The position numbers and the translations under genes were made by a program. DNA of 64,000 nt from Halomonas sp. H10-9-1 (lineage in GTDB: Bacteria > Pseudomonadota > Gammaproteobacteria > Pseudomonadales > Halomonadaceae): NCBI RefSeq assembly GCF_040147005.1, contig NZ_JAMSHO010000001.1:1550001-1614000 (forward strand). The letters run 5' to 3'. Under the pieces are notes generated by a model that ran no database searches, had not been told where the DNA came from, and was given only the letters and a program-made list of their open reading frames with translations. Shown in pieces: positions 2,404 to 26,404 of this stretch; position 1 is the first letter of the stretch; every line of letters starts with the position of its first letter.

Positions 2404-5218
<2,815 letters not shown>

Positions 5219-5249
5219 TGCGGCGCATGAGAACATCAAGGAGGGCCCC

Positions 5250-5585
5250 ATGGCCGCCCAGAAGGCGCTGTCGCTGAACATCCAGGACGTCCAGACGTTG
5301 CTGTCGGCCTATATGCCGGCGCTCGAGCGGGGCGGCATCTTCGTGCCCACCCGCGAGCGCTATGAGCTTGGCCAGCAGATCTATCTGCTGTTGACCCTGC
5401 CCGGCGAGAGCGAGCGGGTGCCGGTCACCGGCCAGGTGGTGTGGGTCTCGCCGGAGGGCGTCACCGGCCGGCGCATGCCGGGTGTGGGCATCCACTTCAG
5501 CGCCGCCGACCAGGGCGTTCGCGACCGCATCGAGAACCTGCTCGCCGGGCATCTCGACAAGGGCGTGCCCACCTATACACTCTGA
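5250..5585 (+). CDS. pilZ: PilZ-domain type IV pilus assembly protein
   Basis: A small PilZ protein (111 residues) of the type needed for type IV pilus assembly. LSLNIQDVQTLLSAYMPALE, GGIFVPT, GQVVWVSPEGVTGRRMPGVG and the C-terminal PTYTL match the pseudomonad PilZ closely. The RxxxR and (D/N)xSxxG c-di-GMP binding motifs are absent, as in canonical PilZ itself, so it is probably not a c-di-GMP receptor. A strong AAGGAGGG at 5238-5245 fixes the start. It sits between holB and tatD, the conserved context. Confidence 0.93.
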   Translation: MAAQKALSLNIQDVQTLLSAYMPALERGGIFVPTRERYELGQQIYLLLTLPGESERVPVTGQVVWVSPEGVTGRRMPGVGIHFSAADQGVRDRIENLLAGHLDKGVPTYTL

Positions 5586-5624
5586 GCCCCGCCCGAGCCA
5601 TTCACCCTATCGGTACTTCACTGC

Positions 5625-6473
5625 ATGTTCGTTGATTCCCACTGCCATCTCGACCGACTCGATTCCACCACCCACGGCGGAGATCTCGCTGCCACCCTGG
5701 ACGCCGCCCGGGCGCGCGGGGTCAAGCAGTTCCTGGCCATTGGCGTCACCCTGGATGACGTTCCGGGGGTCGCCGCCATCGCCCGGGAGCACGCCGACGT
5801 GGTGATCTCCGCCGGTGTCCACCCGTTGCACCGGGTGGCCGAGGAGCCGACCATCGAGGCGATCAAGGAGGCCACCGAGCGGCATGGCGCGGTGGCCATC
5901 GGCGAGTGCGGGCTGGACTATCATTACCTGGAGAAGGCGCCGGACCAGGTGCCGTCGCGGGAGGTCCAGCGCGAGCGCTTCCGTCGCCAGTTGGTCGCCG
6001 CCAGCGAACTGGAGCTACCGGTGATCATCCATACCCGGGAGGCCCGTGACGAGACGCTGGCGTTGATCCGGGAACATACCAATCCCGCGGTGGGTGGCGT
6101 GCTCCACTGCTTCACCGAGGACCTGGAGATGGCTCGGGAGGCGGTGCGCCATGGCTTCTACATCTCGCTCTCCGGGATCGTGACCTTCCATAGCGCCAAG
6201 GCCCTGCGCGAGGTTGCCAGGCGGGTACCCCTGGACCGGCTGCTGATCGAGACCGATAGTCCCTACCTGGCCCCGGTACCCCATCGCGGCAAGCCCAATG
6301 AGCCGGCCTGGGTGGTGGAGGTGGCCGAATGCATCGCCGCCGAGCGTGGGATCAGCGTGGAGGAGGTCGCCATGCAGACCACCGCCAACTTCTATCGGCT
6401 GTTCCGCGCCGCCGCCCCGCAGGCCACCCAGGAAATGCGTGACCTCCTGCAGGGCGCGGGACTGGTCAAGTAG
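5625..6473 (+). CDS. tatD: TatD-family metal-dependent hydrolase/DNase
   Basis: Amidohydrolase-fold metal hydrolase of 282 residues with 3'-5' exonuclease or deoxyribonuclease roles in the family. Metal ligands are visible: H6 and H8 (DSHCHLD), E in GECGLDYHY, H in VIIHTREA, H in LHCFTED and D in IETDSPYLAPVPHRGK. It begins 39 bp after pilZ. The paralogue could also be called YcfH; position after holB-pilZ favours that orthologue group. Confidence 0.93.
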   Translation: MFVDSHCHLDRLDSTTHGGDLAATLDAARARGVKQFLAIGVTLDDVPGVAAIAREHADVVISAGVHPLHRVAEEPTIEAIKEATERHGAVAIGECGLDYHYLEKAPDQVPSREVQRERFRRQLVAASELELPVIIHTREARDETLALIREHTNPAVGGVLHCFTEDLEMAREAVRHGFYISLSGIVTFHSAKALREVARRVPLDRLLIETDSPYLAPVPHRGKPNEPAWVVEVAECIAAERGISVEEVAMQTTANFYRLFRAAAPQATQEMRDLLQGAGLVK

Positions 6474-6483
6474 GAGGAAGACG

Positions 6484-7044
6484 ATGGACCTGGAGCCGCT
6501 GGTGGCACGGATCGACCCCGAGGGCGAGATTCCTCCGGTGGGGGACTGGCACCCCGAACACACTGGCGAGATGGACCTGATGATCGCCGCCGACGGCCGC
6601 TGGATCCACGAGGGTGCCGTCATGTCGCGCCCGCGACTGGTGCGCCTGCTCTCCACCATCCTGCGTCGGGAAACCGACGGCCGCCACGCACTGGTCACAC
6701 CGGTCGAGAAGCAGCTGATCCGCGTCGAGGACCGCCCCTTCCTGGTGGTCGATGCCGAGCGTGCCGATGAGGGTCTCTGGTGGCTGACCACCAACATGGG
6801 CGACCGCCTGCCCCTGGATGCCGACCATCCCTTCACCCTTAGCGAGACGCCGGCGGGCGAATGCGTCCCCGAGGTGGCGGTGCGCTTCGGCCTGGCCGCA
6901 CGCCTCGGGCGTAATGTCTTCTACCGGCTGGTCGAAGAGGCCGTGCCGTTCACCCTGGATGACGGGCGCGCTGCCCTGGGACTCGAGAGCGGCGGCGTCT
7001 GGCATCCGCTGGGCCTGGTCGATGGCGAGACCGCGTGCGGCTGA
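6484..7044 (+). CDS. DUF1285 domain protein
   Basis: A 186-residue cytoplasmic protein recognised as DUF1285 by DWHPEHTGEMDLMIAADGRW, HEGAVMSRPRLVRLLSTILR, VTPVEKQLIRVEDRPF and the FRLVEEA-like C-terminal region. Its function is unknown. The GGAGGAAGACG before ATG 6484 sets the start. It follows tatD by 10 bp and overlaps the helicase start by 10 bp, so it is probably co-transcribed and translationally coupled. Confidence 0.85.
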   Translation: MDLEPLVARIDPEGEIPPVGDWHPEHTGEMDLMIAADGRWIHEGAVMSRPRLVRLLSTILRRETDGRHALVTPVEKQLIRVEDRPFLVVDAERADEGLWWLTTNMGDRLPLDADHPFTLSETPAGECVPEVAVRFGLAARLGRNVFYRLVEEAVPFTLDDGRAALGLESGGVWHPLGLVDGETACG

Positions 7045-9230
7045 CCGATGAACAGCGCGCCGTGGTCGAGCATGGCGCCGGGCATGCGCGCGTCGCCGCG
7101 GTGGCGGGGTCCGGCAAGACCACCACCATGGTGGCGAGGGTGCTGCACCTGCTCGAACGCGGGGTGGCGCCGCAGCGTATCCTGGTGCTGATGTTCAACC
7201 GGTCTGCGCGAGCGGACTTCCAGGCGCGCCTGGCGGCCATGGCCCCCGTGGGCCGGCAGTTGCCGGATGTTCGCACCTTCCACTCCCTGGGCCACCGGCT
7301 GAGTGCCAGCCTGACGCGCTGGGGGGCACTGGCGCCTCGCCAGCTGCTCACCGCCGACTGGCAGCTCGAGCGCCTGCTGCGCCAGGCCACCCAACTCAGC
7401 CTGGGTGACCAGGATGCCGAGGCCAGGGAGTCGGCGCTGGATGCCGAGCGACTCGAGGCGCTCGCCCACTTCTGTGCCCTGGTGAAGGCCGAGATGTTGC
7501 CCGCCGCCGAGCTCCACGAGCGGCTGGATTACGGCGAGGAGACCCGCTACTTTCCGGCCGCTTTCGAGCAGGTCGAGGCGCTGCTGGAGCAGCATGGCCT
7601 GATGGGCTATGCCGACCTGCTCTATCGCCCCTTGCGCGTGCTGGAAGCGGATGGCGCCCTGCGCGGTCGCATCCAGGGCTACCTCGACCATGTGATCATC
7701 GACGAGTATCAGGACATCAACGTCGCCCAGCAGCGGCTGCTGGCGCTGCTCGCCGGCGAGCGTGCCGAGGTGATGGCGGTGGGGGATGCCAACCAGTGCA
7801 TCTACGAGTGGCGTGGGGCCCATCCGGAGACCATGCTCCAGCGCTTCACCGCCACCTTCGGGGTGGCGGTCGACTACCCGCTCTCCACCACCTTCCGCCA
7901 CGGACACGCCCTGGCGCTGGCGGCCAACCACGCCATCGAGGCCAATCGCCGACGCCCCGACCAGCAGTGTCTGGCGGCCCCCGGGAACCCGCTGACCCGG
8001 ATCGAGTCCGGTCAGGGCAGCCGTGGCCTGCTGGATGGCCTGGCCGCGTGGCAGCGGGAGGGGAGGGCGCTTGCCGAGGCCTGTGTGTTGGTGCGCAGCT
8101 GGGCCCTCTCCGTTCCGCTGCAACTGGCGCTGCTGCGCGAGGGCATCTCCTTCCGCCTGGCGCGGGAGGATCGCTTCGTCTACCGTTTGCCGCTGGTGCA
8201 GGCGCTGGCCGGCTACCTGCGCCTGGCATGTGACCCGAGCCTGCTGCGTGATCCCGCGCACCTGACACTGCTGTTCGGCCAGCCGACACCCTTCGTGGCC
8301 CGCGAGCGCCTCGAGGCGCTGGCCCGGCACCTGGCCCAGAGTCAGCGCTGGCCGGCGCCCCAGGACCCGCTGCTGGCTCCTTTGAAGCCCCACCAGAAGC
8401 GCACCCTCAAGAGGCGCTGGGCGTTGCTCTGCGAGTTGCCACGGCTGGCGGCCCGGCCCCCGGTCGAGTTGCTCGAGTACGTGGTGGCCGAGGTCGATGC
8501 CGAAAAGGTGCTCAAGCGTGCCGCGTCGCGTCGCGACAAGGGCGAGGAGGATGTGCGCCTGCTCGATGTGCTCAAGGAGCAGGCCGGCGAGCTGGGCAAC
8601 GATACCGAGGCCTTCGTCGAGCTGCTCAGCCGCCCGGTGGAGAACCGCGATGACGGCGTGCTGATCAACACCGTGCACGGTGCCAAGGGGCTGGAGTGGC
8701 CGCTGGTGGCAGTGGCAGGCGTCAATGAACAGGACTTTCCTCTCTACACCCGCGACAACCCGCTGTCGCCGCAGCGGCTCGAGGAGGAGCGCAGGCTCTT
8801 CTACGTAGCCATCACCCGGGCCCGGGAGCGGCTGCTCCTGCTGCATGATGGTGGCGATCATCGTCCCAGCCGTTTCCTTGCCGAGAGTGCCTGGCAGGAG
8901 TGTGATCACCTGGCCCGACGATTGGATGGGGAGGGCGAAGGGGCCATCGACGTATCCCGCCCTGCTCTGGTGCGTCACTACCTGGCGAGGCTGGGCCAGG
9001 ACCTGCCGCTGGTCGACGGCGGCTCGGGGGTCGCAGAGCCCAGGCGTGACTATCGTGCCTTCGACGTGGGGCAGCGCCTGCGCCATGCTGTGTTCGGCGA
9101 AGGCGAGATCGACCTGGTCGAGGGGGATCCTGACAACCCGGTGATCGAGGTGCGTTTTCGCCATGCCGGCCGACGACGGTTGATCGCTCGCCGGGCGCCC
9201 ATCGAACTGCTCAATGGAGAAAACGCATGA
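7035..9230 (+). CDS. UvrD/Rep-family superfamily I DNA helicase
   Basis: ATP-dependent 3'-5' helicase of the UvrD/Rep/PcrA type, 731 residues, GTG start. The motifs run in order: Walker A AGSGKTTT (24-31), TFHSLGHRL, Walker B/DEYQD, GDANQCIYEWRGA, STTFRHG, NTVHGAKGLEWPLV and ITRARERLLLL. The C-terminus has a small SH3/Tudor-like segment (VGQRLRHAVFGEGEID) like that of PcrA/UvrD. N- and middle-domain divergence from UvrD and Rep themselves suggests a third paralogue. It overlaps DUF1285 upstream and the rhodanese downstream (ATGA). Confidence 0.9.
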   Translation: MRLTDEQRAVVEHGAGHARVAAVAGSGKTTTMVARVLHLLERGVAPQRILVLMFNRSARADFQARLAAMAPVGRQLPDVRTFHSLGHRLSASLTRWGALAPRQLLTADWQLERLLRQATQLSLGDQDAEARESALDAERLEALAHFCALVKAEMLPAAELHERLDYGEETRYFPAAFEQVEALLEQHGLMGYADLLYRPLRVLEADGALRGRIQGYLDHVIIDEYQDINVAQQRLLALLAGERAEVMAVGDANQCIYEWRGAHPETMLQRFTATFGVAVDYPLSTTFRHGHALALAANHAIEANRRRPDQQCLAAPGNPLTRIESGQGSRGLLDGLAAWQREGRALAEACVLVRSWALSVPLQLALLREGISFRLAREDRFVYRLPLVQALAGYLRLACDPSLLRDPAHLTLLFGQPTPFVARERLEALARHLAQSQRWPAPQDPLLAPLKPHQKRTLKRRWALLCELPRLAARPPVELLEYVVAEVDAEKVLKRAASRRDKGEEDVRLLDVLKEQAGELGNDTEAFVELLSRPVENRDDGVLINTVHGAKGLEWPLVAVAGVNEQDFPLYTRDNPLSPQRLEEERRLFYVAITRARERLLLLHDGGDHRPSRFLAESAWQECDHLARRLDGEGEGAIDVSRPALVRHYLARLGQDLPLVDGGSGVAEPRRDYRAFDVGQRLRHAVFGEGEIDLVEGDPDNPVIEVRFRHAGRRRLIARRAPIELLNGENA

Positions 9231-20060: not shown

Positions 20061-22325
20061 CTAGAGCCGCCGCAGCCCCCACATGAAGTAGGCGCCCCCC
20101 AGCAGCGATGCCATCAGGCCGGCCGGGATCTCCTGGGGGAACAGCAGCTGTCGGCCGAGCCAGTCGGCCAGCACCATCAGCAGGGCGCCGACCAGGGCCG
20201 CGCCGGCAAGATGCGCCCGGGCGCGGGCGAAGCCCAGCAGGCGGGCCATATGGGGGGCCAGCAAGCCGACGAACGACAGCGGCCCCACCACCAGGGTAGC
20301 GGCGGCGGTGAGCAGGGCCAGCAGCAGCAGCAGGGCGAGTCGCGCCCGGCCCAGGTGGATGCCCAGGGCGGCGGCGGTAGCGCCGCCCAGCGGCAGGATG
20401 TCCAGCCAGCGGGCGAGCGGCGCGGCCGCCAGTGCCAGCAGCAGGGCCACGGCGGCCACGACCCCCGCGCTGGTGGCGTCGACGTAGTAGGTGGAGCCGG
20501 AGAGCCAGGCGATGATCTGTTGGCCGCGCGGGTCGCCGCCGGCCAGCACGATGGCGCGCACCGCATCGAACAGCGCGGTGATCGCCACCCCGGTGAGCAG
20601 CAGTCGCGCCGGCTGGAAACCGCTCTTGCGGTTGACCAGCACCAGCATCGCCAGTGCCGCCAGGGCGCCCAGGGTGCCGACGCCGACCAGGGGCAGGTTG
20701 CCGGGGGCGGGCAGCAGGAAGATCGCCCCCATCAGGGCGATGGCGCTGCCGCCGCTGATGCCGAGCACCTCGGGGCTGGCCATGGGATTGGCGGTCAGGC
20801 GCTGGATCAGGGTACCGGCGATGGCCAGCATCACGCCGCAGCCGGCGGCGGCCAGCAGGCGCGGCCATCGCCACTGCAGCAGCTCGCCATCGGCGGGGGA
20901 GGCCCACTGCCAGCCGCCAGCGCCCTGGCCGGCCAGGGCGGCGATCACCGCTACGCCGAGCAGGGCGATGGCCAGCCCGGTGGCCAGCCGCCGGGGTGCC
21001 GGATGCCGGCTGCCAATGGCATGGGCCTCGCGGGGGGGCGATTCGTTGGCAAGGCGCAGGCGGGGGATCAGCCACAGCAGCAGCGGGGCGCCAAGGGCGG
21101 CGGTGGTGGCGCCGGTGGGGATCAGCGTCGGCAGGATGCCGGCATAGCGCTGCAGCAGCTGGTCGGTGGTCGCCAGCAGCAGGGCGCCGAGCAGCGTCGA
21201 CCAGACCAGCCGCGCCCCCAGCCGGCGGGCGCCGGCCAGGCGCACGATGTTGGGCGCCGCCAGGCCGAGGAAGCCGATGATGCCGACCACGCTGACCACG
21301 CAGCCGGTCAGGAAGACCGCGAGGCCCAGCCCGCCCAGGCGCAGCCACTTGAGCGACACGCCGAGGCTCTTGGCGCTGGCGTCGTCCAGCTCCAGCATCG
21401 CCAGCGGGCGCAGCAGCCAGGCGGCGAGCAGGGCACCCAGCGCCAGGCGTGGGGCCAGGAAGGCGGCGTCCTGCCAGCCGTTCTGGGAAAGCGACCCCGC
21501 CCCCCAGATCAGCAGCCCCTTGAGTTCCTCCTGGTGGAAGAGCAGCAGCACCATGGCCAGCGCGCCGAGATAGAGGTTGACCACCAGCCCGCTGAGCACC
21601 ACCACCACCGGCGCCAGCCCGCGCCGCCAGGCCAGCAGAAACACCAGCCCCATGGCCAGGCCGCCGCCGGCCAGGGCCACCCACTCGCGACCCAGCGCCA
21701 CCAGGCGGTCGCAGTAGCGCGAGGCCATGTTGATGTCGTGGAGCACGATGATCACGCCGAGACCGAGCTCCTGGGACAGCCGGCGCGTCAGGGCCAGCAC
21801 CTCGACCTGGTGGGCGATGTCCAGCGCCGCCAGCGGCTCGTCGAGCAGCAGGAAGCGGCTGCCCTGGGCCAGCAGCATGGCCAGCCAGACGCGCTGGCGC
21901 TCGCCGCCGGAGAGGGTGTCCACCAGGCGGTCGGCGAAGGGCTCGGTATGGGTCAAGGCGATGGCGCGCTCGACCTGTTCGCGATCCTCCCGGGTATGGC
22001 GCCCCAGCAGGCCATGCCAGGGATAGCGCCCCAGTCCGATCAACTCGCGTCCGGTCAGCGACTCGGCGCTGGGCAGGTGCTGGGGCAGGTAGGCCACCTG
22101 GCGGGCGAACTCACGGTTGCCCCAGTCGCTCAAGGGGCGGCCATCGAAGCGGATCTCGCCGCCGCTGGCGGGCTGTTGCTGGGCCAGCAGCTTGAGCAGT
22201 GTCGACTTGCCCGAACCGTTGTGGCCGATCAGGCCATGGACCTGGCCTTCCTCGAAGCGCAGGTCGATGGGAGACAGCAGGTGTTTGCCGTTGACCTCGA
22301 AGGTCGCGGCCTGGGCGTCGAACAT
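20061..22325 (-). CDS. FhuC-FhuB chimera: ferric hydroxamate ABC ATPase fused to truncated permease
   Basis: One 754-residue frame. Residues 1-~211 are FhuC, the ferrichrome importer ATPase: Walker A GHNGSGKS (34-41), signature LSGGERQ (138-144), Walker B LLLDEP and H-loop [18 protein letters not shown]. There it switches to FhuB at [14 protein letters not shown], about residue 118 of a normal FhuB, and continues through both FecCD halves, with coupling motifs [12 protein letters not shown] and [12 protein letters not shown], to a normal C-terminus. Missing are ~50 FhuC C-terminal residues, all of FhuD, and the first FhuB helices. The native order is fhuC-fhuD-fhuB, so an in-frame ~1.4 kb deletion explains it. 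The junction is near 21685-21700. Transport function is doubtful. Confidence 0.9.
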
Positions 22326-22404
22326 GGTGGACTCCGTGGCTCGTAGAGTGCGCTGCGCCCCGCAAGGCAGCCGGGAACGGGCGACTGATCGAGGGTACCT
22401 GCGA

Positions 22405-22423
22405 TAGTAATGGTTATCAATAC
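22405..22423. promoter_or_regulatory. Fur box upstream of the fhuC-fhuB chimera
   Basis: On the minus strand GTATTGATAACCATTACTA matches the Fur consensus at 12 of the central 15 positions. It lies 80 bp upstream of the chimera start, in the gap to the receptor gene. Confidence 0.7.
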
Positions 22424-22479
22424 GGTTGTATTGGGCATCGGTCCATCGCGAGGATGAGCACTGTCGGACGTGGCGGGGC

Positions 22480-24558
22480 TCAGAAATCGTAGCTGAGGGT
22501 GGCCTTCACGCTGCGCTCGGCGCCGAAGTAGCAGTAGTTGAGGTCGTAGCAGGAGGCGACGTACTCCTTGTCGAGCAGGTTGCCGACGTTGAGTCGCGCC
22601 GAGACGCCGTCGAGGCCCACGCGGGAGAGGTCATAGCCGAGGGTGGCGTCGACCAGGGTGTAGTCCGGGACCTTCTCGGTGTTTTCCTCGTCGGCGTGGA
22701 TGTCGGCGTGATAGCGCACCCCGAGCCCGGCATCCAGGCCCGCCAGGGCGCCGCGGTCGAAGGCGTAGTTGGCCCAGACGCTGGCCTGGTGACGCGGCAC
22801 CTGGTTGGCGGCGTTGCCCTGGGTGTCGTCCTCGGTCTTGGCGTAGGTCACGTCGGTGAAGCTGTAGCCGGCCTGGAGACGCAGGTTGTCGGTCAGCTGG
22901 GTATGGGCCTCGAGCTCGACGCCCTGGGACTCGATCTCGCCCACCGCGCGGTAGAAGCTCTCGTTGGGGTCCTTGGTGGCGACGCTCTCCTGGGAGATGT
23001 GGAACAGCGCGAGGCGGTAGCGATCCCGGGTGCCATTGGGCTGGAACTTCAGGCCCGTCTCGAGCTGCTCGCCCTCGGTGGGCGCCAGCAGGTTGCCGTT
23101 CGCGTCGGTATAGGCATTGGGCGAGAACGAGGTGGAGTAGCTGACGTAGGGCGATACGCCGTTGTCGAAGCGATACAGCAGCCCGACGCGGCCGCTGAGC
23201 TGGGTGTCGTCCAGTTCGCTGGTGGTGCCGGTGCCCTCATTGGTGTTCTCGATATCGACCCAGTCGTGGCGCAGGCCCAGCACCAGGTGCCAGTGGCCGA
23301 CGGCCATCTGATCCTGCAGGTAGACGCCGGTCTGGCTCAGGTCGCGCTGCTGGTCGTCGGTCTGGTAGATCGAGACATCGCTGCCGTACTGAGGGTCTGT
23401 CACGTCGAGCGAGGCGGTGGTGCCGTAGTCCCAGAGCACGTCGTTCTCGCGCTGCTGGTAGTCGGCGCCGAACAGCAGGATGTGGTCGACGGCGCCGGTG
23501 GTGAGCTCGGCCTGGAGCTGGTTGTCGACGGTCCAGGCCTCGAGGTCCTCCTGGCCGCCGGAATAGTAGCGGGTGAGATCGGTGTCGTTGGCCCAGCCGT
23601 AGGCGTAGACCTGGTTCATGGTGACGTCCGCGTTCAGGTAGCGGGCGTTCTGGCGCAGGGTCAGGGTGTCGTTGAGGCGATGCTCCAGCGCATAGCCGAA
23701 CATCCTTTGCTCGCGCTCGAAGGCCTCGAAGTCCTCCTCGCCCTCGAAGAAGGTGTTGGAGAGCCGACGGCCGGCGTGATTCTTTATGGTGCCCTCGAAC
23801 GGCAGGCCGGAGTGGTAGCCGCCCTCGGGATCCTTCTGCAGGTAGGCGTACAGCGTCAGGCTGGTGGCATCGGTGGCATCCCAGGTGAGCGAGGGCGCCA
23901 GGGCATAGCGCTGCTCCTCGACCGGGCCGAACTGGGTGTCGGCGCTGCGCGCCAGGCCGGTCAGCCGATAGGCCAGGCGGCGCTCGTCGTCCAGCGGCCC
24001 GGTGAGATCGAAGGCGGCGCTCTTGTGGGCGTTGTTGCCGGCGCCCAGGCGCAGCTGGCCCGAGCGCTCGAACTCGGGGCGCTTGCCGGTCAGCGCCACC
24101 AGGCCGCCGGGGGAGGCGCGGCCATAGAGCACCGAGGCCGGCCCCTTGACCACCTCGATGCTGTCGAGGAAGTAGGGGTCGATGACCATCGAGCTGAACG
24201 AGCCCGCATCGCCCATCACCTTGAGGCCGTCGAGGAAGGTGTTGTTGATGCTGCCGTCGGAGAAGCCGCGCAGCACCAGATAGTCGTAGCGATTGGACGC
24301 ACCGATCTGGTTGGTGAAGACGCCGGGGGTGTAGTCGGCGGCGCGCTGCACCGTCTCGGCGCCGTGCTCTTCCCACGCCTCGCGCTGGATGACCGAGATG
24401 GCCTGGGGCGTCTCGCTGAACGGTGTCTCCGTCTTGGTGGCCGCGGTGCCGGTGACGGTCAGGGTGGAGAGCTGTTCGGTGTCCTGGGCCTGGGCCATGA
24501 ACGACGAGCCGGCGGCGGCGAGCGCTACCGCCAGCGCCAATGGGCGTGGGGTCGACAT
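22480..24558 (-). CDS. TonB-dependent hydroxamate siderophore receptor, FhuA-like
   Basis: Outer-membrane gated channel of 692 residues. A signal peptide (about 1-24, ending FMAQA) is followed by TonB box-like LSTLTVTG, a plug ([58 protein letters not shown]) and a beta barrel ending in Phe (KATLSYDF). The plug style matches the FhuA/FoxA (ferrichrome, ferrioxamine) group; the exact ligand cannot be read. Start ATG 24558 gives the signal peptide. It precedes the FhuC-FhuB gene on the same strand and has a Fur box upstream. Confidence 0.88.
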
Positions 24559-24591
24559 GAGGAAGATCCTTGGTGTGAATGAATAACGCTG

Positions 24592-24610
24592 AGTAATGAG
24601 AATTATTGCC
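24592..24610. promoter_or_regulatory. Fur box upstream of the FhuA-like receptor
   Basis: AGTAATGAGAATTATTGCC matches the Fur 19-mer at 12 positions, with the central TAATGAGAATTATT core intact. It lies 33 bp upstream of the receptor start, between it and the AraC regulator. Confidence 0.7.
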
Positions 24611-24662
24611 TTTAAGAGGCGGGTCGAGGTATGCGCAGCGCTCACCCATCTATGCGTGATGC

Positions 24663-25601
24663 TCAGTCGTCGTGGAGCAGGGAACTCGGCGCCACGCCGT
24701 AGCGGCGACGGAAGGCGGTGGCGAAGTTGGAGGCGTGGCGATAGCCGCAGAAGTGGGCGGCCTGCTGCACGCTGTAGCCACGTCGCAGATAGTCGTGGGC
24801 GAGGCGCAGTCGGCAGTCACGCAGGTAATCGAAGACGCTACGGCCGAAGGCGGCCTGGAACTTGCGCCGCAGGCTGGCGGGGCTCATGGCGGCAAGCCTC
24901 GCCAGAGCCTCCAGGCGATGCTCGGCGGCGGGGGCCTCCTCCAGCGCGGCGCGGACCCGCTCCAGGCGCTGATGCTCCCCGGGGGGCAGCGCGGAACCGG
25001 GCGCCCGGTCCCGCGTCGGGGGCAGGCCGTGGGCCAGTAGCTGCAGGCCGAGCCCTTCCAGCAGCAGGCCCTGGGCGCGCTCGGGCAGCGGCGAGGCCAG
25101 GGCCTGTTCGAGCCCCTGGTGCAGCGGGGTGGGCAGCTGCCAGGCATGCATGCGCGAACCCTCGTGGCTCGTAGGCGCCGCGCCCAACTCGGCCAGGCGC
25201 GACGCCTCGAGCCCCAGGGTCAGGGCGCGGATACGCTGCCCGGCGGGCTGGGTAGCCTGCAGGCCATCGCGGCGGTCGAGCTGCACGCTCAACGCCGTAC
25301 CCGGCGTCAGGACCAGGCGGCGGTCCGCCAGGCGAACCTCGGCCCGACCCTCCAGCATGACCACGATCGACAGCGGCGAGGGCGCCCGGGAGCGGGAGTC
25401 GTAGCGATGCAGCACCTCCACGTCGGAGGCCACCAGCTCCATGCCCTGGCCCAGGGCCATCTCGCGGACCGCGCCGCGCACCACCGGCTCCTCGGCCCTG
25501 GCGTGCAGCGCCGGCACCCGGTAATCGATGCCGTAACGCCGCCCGTAGGCCTGCAGGTCGCGGGCGGTATGCTGGCGCACCCGGGAGGCGATCGCGCTCA
25601 A
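24663..25601 (-). CDS. AraC-family transcriptional regulator (PchR-like)
   Basis: A 312-residue regulator with a C-terminal AraC double helix-turn-helix (LARLAAMSPASLRRKFQAAF and GYSVQQAAHFCGYRHASNFA), and an N-terminal sensing domain (VLHRYDSRSRAPSPLSIVVM). Regulators of this arrangement often sense an imported siderophore. TTG 25601 overlaps the stop of the upstream FhuF-like gene (TTGA), giving translational coupling; GTG 25580 is an alternative. It probably activates the adjacent receptor gene. Confidence 0.85.
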   Translation of the reverse strand: MSAIASRVRQHTARDLQAYGRRYGIDYRVPALHARAEEPVVRGAVREMALGQGMELVASDVEVLHRYDSRSRAPSPLSIVVMLEGRAEVRLADRRLVLTPGTALSVQLDRRDGLQATQPAGQRIRALTLGLEASRLAELGAAPTSHEGSRMHAWQLPTPLHQGLEQALASPLPERAQGLLLEGLGLQLLAHGLPPTRDRAPGSALPPGEHQRLERVRAALEEAPAAEHRLEALARLAAMSPASLRRKFQAAFGRSVFDYLRDCRLRLAHDYLRRGYSVQQAAHFCGYRHASNFATAFRRRYGVAPSSLLHDD

Positions 25602-26347
25602 GAGACTGCCTTTGCCGCCGGGGCAGCGCGTCGGCATTCGAGCGGGCAGTTGCCGCAGTAGCCGAGCTCGTCGATCAGGTAGCGGATGCAGCATAGCCGG
25701 CGCACCCGACGCGGTGCCTCGGCGTCGTTGGGTTCGACGTAGCGCACCGGACGATACAGCGGGTTGCGGCGCCCGTCGGCCAGCTGGCGGCTGGCCAGCA
25801 GCCGCTGGGCCTCGTCGGCGCCGTGGGGCGAGGCCATGGGATGGCTCGGCAGGGCGTTGGCGAAGTACTCGAAGTAGTTGCCGGCGTTGCTCCAGAAGAC
25901 CTTGGGCGAGGCCCCGGTAAGGGAGGCCAGGGCCTCGATCAGCGGCGTGAGGTGACCATCGAGCAGGGTGGCGAAGCGGGACAGGCCGTCGAGTTCAGCG
26001 AGCGGGCGGCCGGCGTGGAACAGGTGAAGCCCGGTGGTCTGGCCCTCCGGCGATTGAGCGAGGTGCAGCTCGTCCAGCCCCAGGGGGAGGTCGCGCTCCA
26101 GCAGCAGGTTGGCGGCCAGGCCATGGGCGCAGAGCGCGCTGAAATGCCACTTGGACCACAGCGAGGCCACGGCCCGGCGATCGCCGTTGCCGTACTGGAC
26201 TCCGAAGCGCTCGAGCAGCGCGGCCAGATAGGCCGGGTCGAGCAGCCGGCGAGCGGGCACGCTGTCGGCCGCGGGCGTCGCCGCGACCTGCGGGGGTGGC
26301 AGGTGCTGCAGGGGGCCGATATAGAGCTGCGACAGCGCGAGAGTCAT
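25598..26347 (-). CDS. fhuF: FhuF-like siderophore-iron reductase
   Basis: A 249-residue cytoplasmic protein with the FhuF C-terminal 2Fe-2S motif CC-x10-C-x2-C (CCIRYLIDELGYCGNC). FhuF-type reductases release iron from imported hydroxamates. The body shows SKWHFSALCAHGLAANLLL and KVFWSNAGNYFEYF, typical of the family. A near-consensus Fur box lies 39 bp upstream. It overlaps the downstream AraC gene. Confidence 0.88.
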   Translation of the reverse strand: MTLALSQLYIGPLQHLPPPQVAATPAADSVPARRLLDPAYLAALLERFGVQYGNGDRRAVASLWSKWHFSALCAHGLAANLLLERDLPLGLDELHLAQSPEGQTTGLHLFHAGRPLAELDGLSRFATLLDGHLTPLIEALASLTGASPKVFWSNAGNYFEYFANALPSHPMASPHGADEAQRLLASRQLADGRRNPLYRPVRYVEPNDAEAPRRVRRLCCIRYLIDELGYCGNCPLECRRAAPAAKAVS

Positions 26348-26385: not shown

Positions 26386-26404
26386 TCAAATGGTAATCAT
26401 TATC
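26386..26404. promoter_or_regulatory. Fur box upstream of fhuF
   Basis: TCAAATGGTAATCATTATC matches the Fur consensus at 15 of 19 positions, the best 19-mer match in the region. Confidence 0.85.

Follow-up and report, generated by a model that had tools for sequence, protein, structure and literature searches.

The window analyzed in our study is a stretch of 64,000 nucleotides from the genome of a Halomonas strain (G000), and it contains an fhu locus whose central feature is a single open reading frame that joins part of the ATPase FhuC to part of the permease FhuB (Table 1). This frame starts with ATG and runs for 754 codons without any internal stop. In the Pfam annotation, an ABC_tran domain at residues 17-166 is followed by two FecCD stretches. 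The NCBIfam model for FhuC (NF007863) covers residues 2-213, with a match that ends at model position 223 of 265 and a score of 321.6; the intact FhuC of L050, the closest genome found, scores 382.5, and both values fall below the cut-off of 433. The corresponding FhuB model (NF007866) covers residues 204-753 from model position 112 of 666, and its total score of 691 passes the cut-off of 554. Reading the FhuC part directly, we assign residues 34-42 to Walker A, 138-145 to the signature, 159-164 to Walker B and His196 to the H-loop. In an alignment with E. coli FhuCDB (structure 7LB8), the FhuC chain pairs with residues 6-217 of the fusion, and residues 114-657 of the FhuB chain pair with residues 210-753; both coupling-helix regions of E. 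coli FhuB (209-226 and 542-559) are retained in this alignment, at fusion residues ~305-322 and ~638-655. The open reading frame, both domain resources and the structural alignment therefore agree with the original prediction of one uninterrupted frame that passes from FhuC into the middle of FhuB at about residue 211, and the motif reading and the 7LB8 alignment likewise confirm its statement that the ATPase core and both coupling motifs are kept. Nevertheless, the fusion is neither a complete FhuC nor a complete FhuB. Although it has the ABC ATPase motifs of an FhuC, it does not form a separate chain of ~255-265 residues, since 211 residues are followed directly by FhuB. Counted on P0001, an intact FhuB of the Halomonas type, the FhuB portion starts near residue 126. 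Its first FecCD repeat is partial, with a match to positions 100-309 of the 311 in the profile, and the second covers 32-311, so that the two complete FecCD repeats of ten transmembrane helices (TMs) each that define FhuB are not present.

Table 1. Features of the fhu locus in the window and of the two operons in other genomes with which it is compared.
Feature	Position	Strand	Remarks
In-frame FhuC'-'FhuB fusion ORF, 754 aa	20061..22325	-	Probably a pseudogene left by the fhuCDB operon
Part derived from FhuC, residues 1-211 (usual length 255)	21693..22325	-	C-terminal 44 residues gone
FhuB-derived part, residues ~212-754 and stop	20061..21692	-	TM4 onward kept; TM1-TM3 missing
Junction, 8-bp microhomology TGGCGCTG	21693..21700	-	Present in L050 at both breakpoints, in fhuC and in fhuB; switch from FhuC to FhuB at 21700-21693
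Fur-box-like palindrome upstream of the fusion	22403..22418	+	In the interval that separates receptor gene and fusion; 2 mismatches to the search consensus
TonB-dependent siderophore receptor, intact	22480..24645	-	Pfam/NCBIfam
AraC-family regulator ORF	24663..25694	-	Family match
FhuF-type siderophore-iron reductase	25598..26347	-	Family match
Intact operon of L050	fhuC 4107-4874; fhuD 4893-5810; FhuB end at 7806		Order fhuC-fhuD-fhuB
Broken fhu operon of G006	L162 (G006:C1:980000-992000), ~5298-9065		Receptor ORF and FhuD ORF kept

The neighboring genes for the receptor, the AraC-family regulator and FhuF have open frames that match their own families. The best NCBIfam model for the receptor is FoxA, the ferrioxamine B receptor, rather than FhuA, with a score of 1053.6 that lies below the cut-off of 1300. 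Three Fur-box-like matches were found in the window versus 0.10 expected, and the one upstream of the fusion suggests that an iron-regulated promoter has probably been kept there. A second such site, with three mismatches to the same consensus, lies just upstream of fhuF at 26389-26404. Between its receptor gene and fhuC, L050 has an ABC exporter gene (L050:2038-3882, minus strand) that is absent from the window, where positions 22469-22477 correspond to L050:1917-3963; the only match of this exporter in G000 at E<=1e-200 (84% identity) is found at C1:689436-691229, beside a second FecCD locus. The fhu locus may be prone to rearrangement.

The record of L050 is labelled Halomonas organivorans strain CECT 5995, a species label that must be considered unreliable because P0005, another FhuB under the same species name, is only 85% identical. 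Over the aligned segments, the window and L050 share 97.4% identity in the receptor gene, 94.1% in fhuC and 92.8% in fhuB, and the FhuC part of the fusion is 99.5% identical to the FhuC of L050 at the amino acid level over 211 codons. As the original prediction proposed checking in the closest genomes, L050 has fhuC, fhuD and fhuB intact, and when the two halves of the fusion are placed on it their offsets differ by 1435 bp, which bears out the predicted deletion of about 1.4 kb from the middle of fhuC to the middle of fhuB. The two breakpoints share the 8 bases TGGCGCTG, a microhomology read in L050 and not in the strain's own ancestor. At least 8 shared bases occurred in 0.0895% of 200,000 random joins between fhuC and fhuB of L050, so the join resembles an ordinary microhomology deletion. 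The genes fhuC and fhuB of L050 lie in different frames and 1435 equals 1 modulo 3, which indicates that the deletion itself brought the remnants into one frame, a one-in-three accident. We also considered the near-identical repeats GGTGGCGCTGG and GGTGGCCCTGG, which had been suggested as possible mediators of the deletion. They are real, but they lie 21 bases apart in the surviving sequence; since both copies survive and the second is ordinary fhuB, they are not the repeats that recombined, and that part of the proposal fails.

Special attention was given to the distribution of the fusion in relatives of the strain, of which the named ones are mostly Halomonas or renamed Halomonas-group genera. 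The fusion does not recur in many independent genomes, the pattern that the original prediction had named as contrary to a deletion: a search for the junction 32-mer that allowed up to 3 mismatches hit a single genome out of the 275 of the family, G000 itself. The fusion protein is matched at E<=1e-80 in 217 of these 275 genomes, G000 included, and among the matches listed all except that of G000 begin at residue 201 or later, corresponding to a separate FhuB; a fused homologue would be expected to score above a separate FhuB and thus to lead the match list. A smaller search of 58 genomes gave matches at E<=1e-60 in 32, again with G000 included; 30 of the other 31 have separate fhuC and fhuB matches, and G043 has FhuB only. 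Where fhuC and fhuB lie on the same strand in relatives, fhuC stops after 255-256 codons, before fhuB, in 44 of 44 pairs. At the protein level, the best 120 of 1453 matches are all 632-680 residues long and none of them is fused. The best among the matches listed, P0001, is an intact FhuB of 667 residues that is 97% identical over 74% of the fusion; it represents a cluster of 16 sequences with the source tag lgn, which we take to be metagenomic. Among the papers listed by literature searches, none gave an account of this fusion. These observations complete the picture expected of a microhomology deletion scar: the closest genome found keeps the operon intact, a single clean deletion accounts for the difference, a few bases are shared at the join, and no other carrier was found.

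Two irregularities among the relatives deserve mention. Open frames of 1234-1280 residues seemed to surround fhuC in six of them, and a direct check of four of these loci (L139, L142, L144 and L146) revealed no fusion, with fhuC frames of 267-293 codons; in L139, fhuC and fhuB happen to lie in one frame, and there the larger figure is the span from the start of the fhuC frame to the end of fhuB, which seems to have been read through the stop. The same check discards the idea that the long frames are antisense to a neighboring gene. In addition, FhuB of G031 appears in two overlapping pieces (G031:C1:1885387-1887026, L155) that match residues 208-412 and 409-754, which suggests a frameshift or a sequencing error.

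The gene fhuD is absent from the fusion locus, and an FhuD query yielded 0 matches in the whole of G000. The same query matched 7 of 10 genomes, G000 being among the 10; the matches were strong in G006 and in the five genomes that carry fhuC together with fhuB, and weak (5e-12) in G018. The locus therefore does not encode the cognate FhuD that defines an FhuCDB system, as had been predicted. Apart from the fusion itself, the best FecCD matches in G000 are 37-39% identical to it, which means that the genome has no second FhuB of this kind, and the suggested search for fhuD or another fhuB elsewhere in the genome thus found neither. Three other binding proteins of family PF01497 are present: one BtuF-like (at L149), one FecB-like (at L150, the second FecCD locus), each scoring below the cut-off of its own model, and a third located in a cobalamin gene cluster. 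This last one, an orphan binding protein at C1:2311223, was considered as a spare FhuD and rejected, since it lies among cobalamin genes and is not matched by the FhuD query. L149 and L150 are the two other strong FecCD loci, each with an adjoining ABC ATPase frame, and a weak FecCD match occurs at C1:2180761. Two hydroxamate biosynthesis families, PF04183 and PF13434, were looked for in G000 and not found, so the locus probably served the uptake of foreign siderophores.

The complete genome G006, a two-contig assembly of the same genus, has a broken fhu operon of its own. It was not matched by fhuC or fhuB at the cut-offs of either fusion search (E<=1e-60 and E<=1e-80). At its fhu locus, fhuC matches residues 1-99 and 179-255 only, with ~100-178 missing, and the FhuB part is reduced to 35 matching residues, nearly all of fhuB being gone. 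G006 has thus lost its pieces of fhuC and fhuB independently and by other deletions, with the receptor again retained.

In order to estimate the age of the event, we compared rates of change. Relative to L050, the FhuC part has a dN/dS of 0.019, compared with 0.183 in the FhuB part and 0.372 in the receptor. When majority-assigned sites are counted, the nonsynonymous changes of the FhuB part are split evenly between the window side and the other side (16 each), with 5 unassigned; in the receptor, taken as a control, the window side has the larger share (13 versus 8), also with 5 unassigned. The changes were assigned with 16 outgroup rows for the receptor, 65 for FhuC and 89 for FhuB. For private changes, the alignments were thinned of near-identical sequences to 57 rows for FhuC and 83 for FhuB, with the window included; at otherwise invariant FhuB sites the fusion has 1, in comparison with a mean of 0.61 and a maximum of 7 over the 83 rows. 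Accelerated decay of the fusion, which we had considered, is thus not seen in dN/dS, in the side-by-side changes or in the private-site counts, and this means that the event is recent or that the frame has been maintained. The data fit a recent deletion and favor neither long maintenance nor decay.

According to the E. coli structure paper (PMC8660799), FhuB has 20 TMs, the TM10-TM11 loop lies at the cytosolic opening, the TM2-TM3 loop forms a cytoplasmic gate, and the pathway is made up of TM3, TM5 and TM15. The alignment with the fusion begins at E. coli FhuB residue 114; the pathway residues T91, T92, A96, T97 and Q100 given in that paper are therefore on the deleted side. Three hydrophobic segments precede the equivalent point in intact FhuB and none does so in the fusion, so that TM1-TM3 are missing, and with them the gate loop between TM2 and TM3 as well as TM3 itself, a helix of the pathway. 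With 20 TMs and a cytosolic TM10-TM11 loop, TM4 would run from the periplasm inward, and the FhuC domain would consequently be tethered, almost without a linker, to the periplasmic end of this helix. An AlphaFold model of the fusion (alignment A2, 22 rows) reached a mean pLDDT of 34.7 and was uninformative. The coupling-helix regions and the ATPase motifs are kept; the binding protein is lost and, by analogy with the E. coli structure, so would be the channel and its topology.

Taken together, these results make it highly probable that the locus is the scar of a recent microhomology deletion in an fhuCDB operon, with a dead importer as its product; most likely, this is ordinary gene loss and not a new kind of transporter. 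On this reading, and as the comparison with L050 shows, a recent deletion of about 1435 bp at the 8-bp microhomology took away the last part of fhuC, the whole of fhuD and the first part of fhuB in this Halomonas lineage, and the remnants landed in one frame by a one-in-three chance. The product would be a non-functional remnant of an FhuCDB-type importer, as its topology in the light of the E. coli structure suggests. Against this reading stand the lack of sequence decay in the remnant and the FhuB model score, which still passes its cut-off. Since the receptor, the regulator and FhuF remain, foreign hydroxamates could still enter the periplasm, although they would not reach the cytoplasm by this route. 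The main rival is an artefact of assembly or library, in which the organism has an intact operon and the join is a chimera or a misassembly. The junction is indeed known from one assembly only, and nearly all of the other matching relatives keep separate genes. This explanation is nonetheless improbable, as the assembly consists of 2 contigs with 99.99% completeness and 0.1% contamination, no fhuD was found anywhere in it, and the join sits at a microhomology; an 8-bp repeat would also be far too short for an assembly collapse, and for this reason the collapse that the original prediction listed as an option is not favored, though we leave it a small chance.

It is important to consider as well whether the fusion could work. 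In a single-polypeptide importer, the FhuC domain would energize the FhuB remnant with a borrowed binding protein, a possibility to which the open frame, the ATPase motifs, both coupling-helix regions and the lack of signs of decay lend some appeal, as does the existence of a natural chain with an ATPase followed by a FecCD domain (P0208, 626 residues). However, the loss of TM1-TM3 and the location of the ATPase at the periplasmic end of TM4 make a working importer very unlikely; the FecCD domain of P0208 is complete (3-311 of 311), the matches listed from the 275 family genomes include no fused relative, and the other three PF01497 proteins are BtuF-like, FecB-like or part of a cobalamin cluster. 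The chance that a single chain made under iron limitation moves a siderophore through TM4-TM20, using a borrowed binding protein or none and with TM4 inverted or dropped, is in our view minimal. The novel one-polypeptide transporter of the original prediction is thus not supported, and its alternative of a dead importer gains from the missing helices, the position of the ATPase and the absence of FhuD. It is just as improbable that the truncated FhuC domain acts as a shared ATPase for the other FecCD permeases of the cell. Its strong conservation would agree with such a role, and FhuC has been reported to govern Isd-dependent heme acquisition in S. aureus (PMC10147376), but the domain is 44 residues short at its C-terminus and continues directly into hydrophobic helices, and L149 and L150 have ATPase frames of their own.

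If the deletion scar is the correct reading, the locus offers a clear example of how a deletion between short repeats can produce a gene fusion that is in frame by chance. It also calls for caution in annotation, given that even a broken system may present an extended open frame in which two domains match well, one of them passing a curated permease model. The sequence leads us to predict a strain that would not use hydroxamate siderophores while its outer receptor remains, and G006 represents a second genome of the genus with the same kind of loss through different deletions.

Other fusions between neighbors of a single fhu operon are present in the databases, including FhuC-FhuD (P0139, an E. 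coli record of 562 residues) and FhuA-FhuC (P0146 and P0130), which involve gene pairs other than the FhuC-FhuB of the window. The length of P0139 is close to that of two whole proteins together, so it probably reflects a lost stop codon. These cases, together with P0129 and similar ones, mostly have one member sequence each, which suggests that accidental fusions recur in fhu operons. Single-chain ATPase-FecCD proteins make up 3 of the best 120 of 381 matches (P0155, P0165 and P0208). P0208 has the ATPase first, as in the fusion, whereas P0165 (664 residues) and P0155 have the permease first; the FecCD domain of P0165 (2-311) is complete like that of P0208, and P0155 is a single sequence and itself incomplete (FecCD 38-254, ABC 53-136). 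The fusion differs from the complete chains of this type in that the FecCD repeat next to its ATPase begins at profile position 100. Its closest resemblance is to the FhuCDB system itself (7LB8; NF007863 and NF007866), with pieces of FhuC and FhuB in the usual order and, as in L050, a receptor gene upstream; it departs from that system by the loss of FhuD, the C-terminus of FhuC and TM1-TM3 of FhuB, and by having its remnants in one chain.
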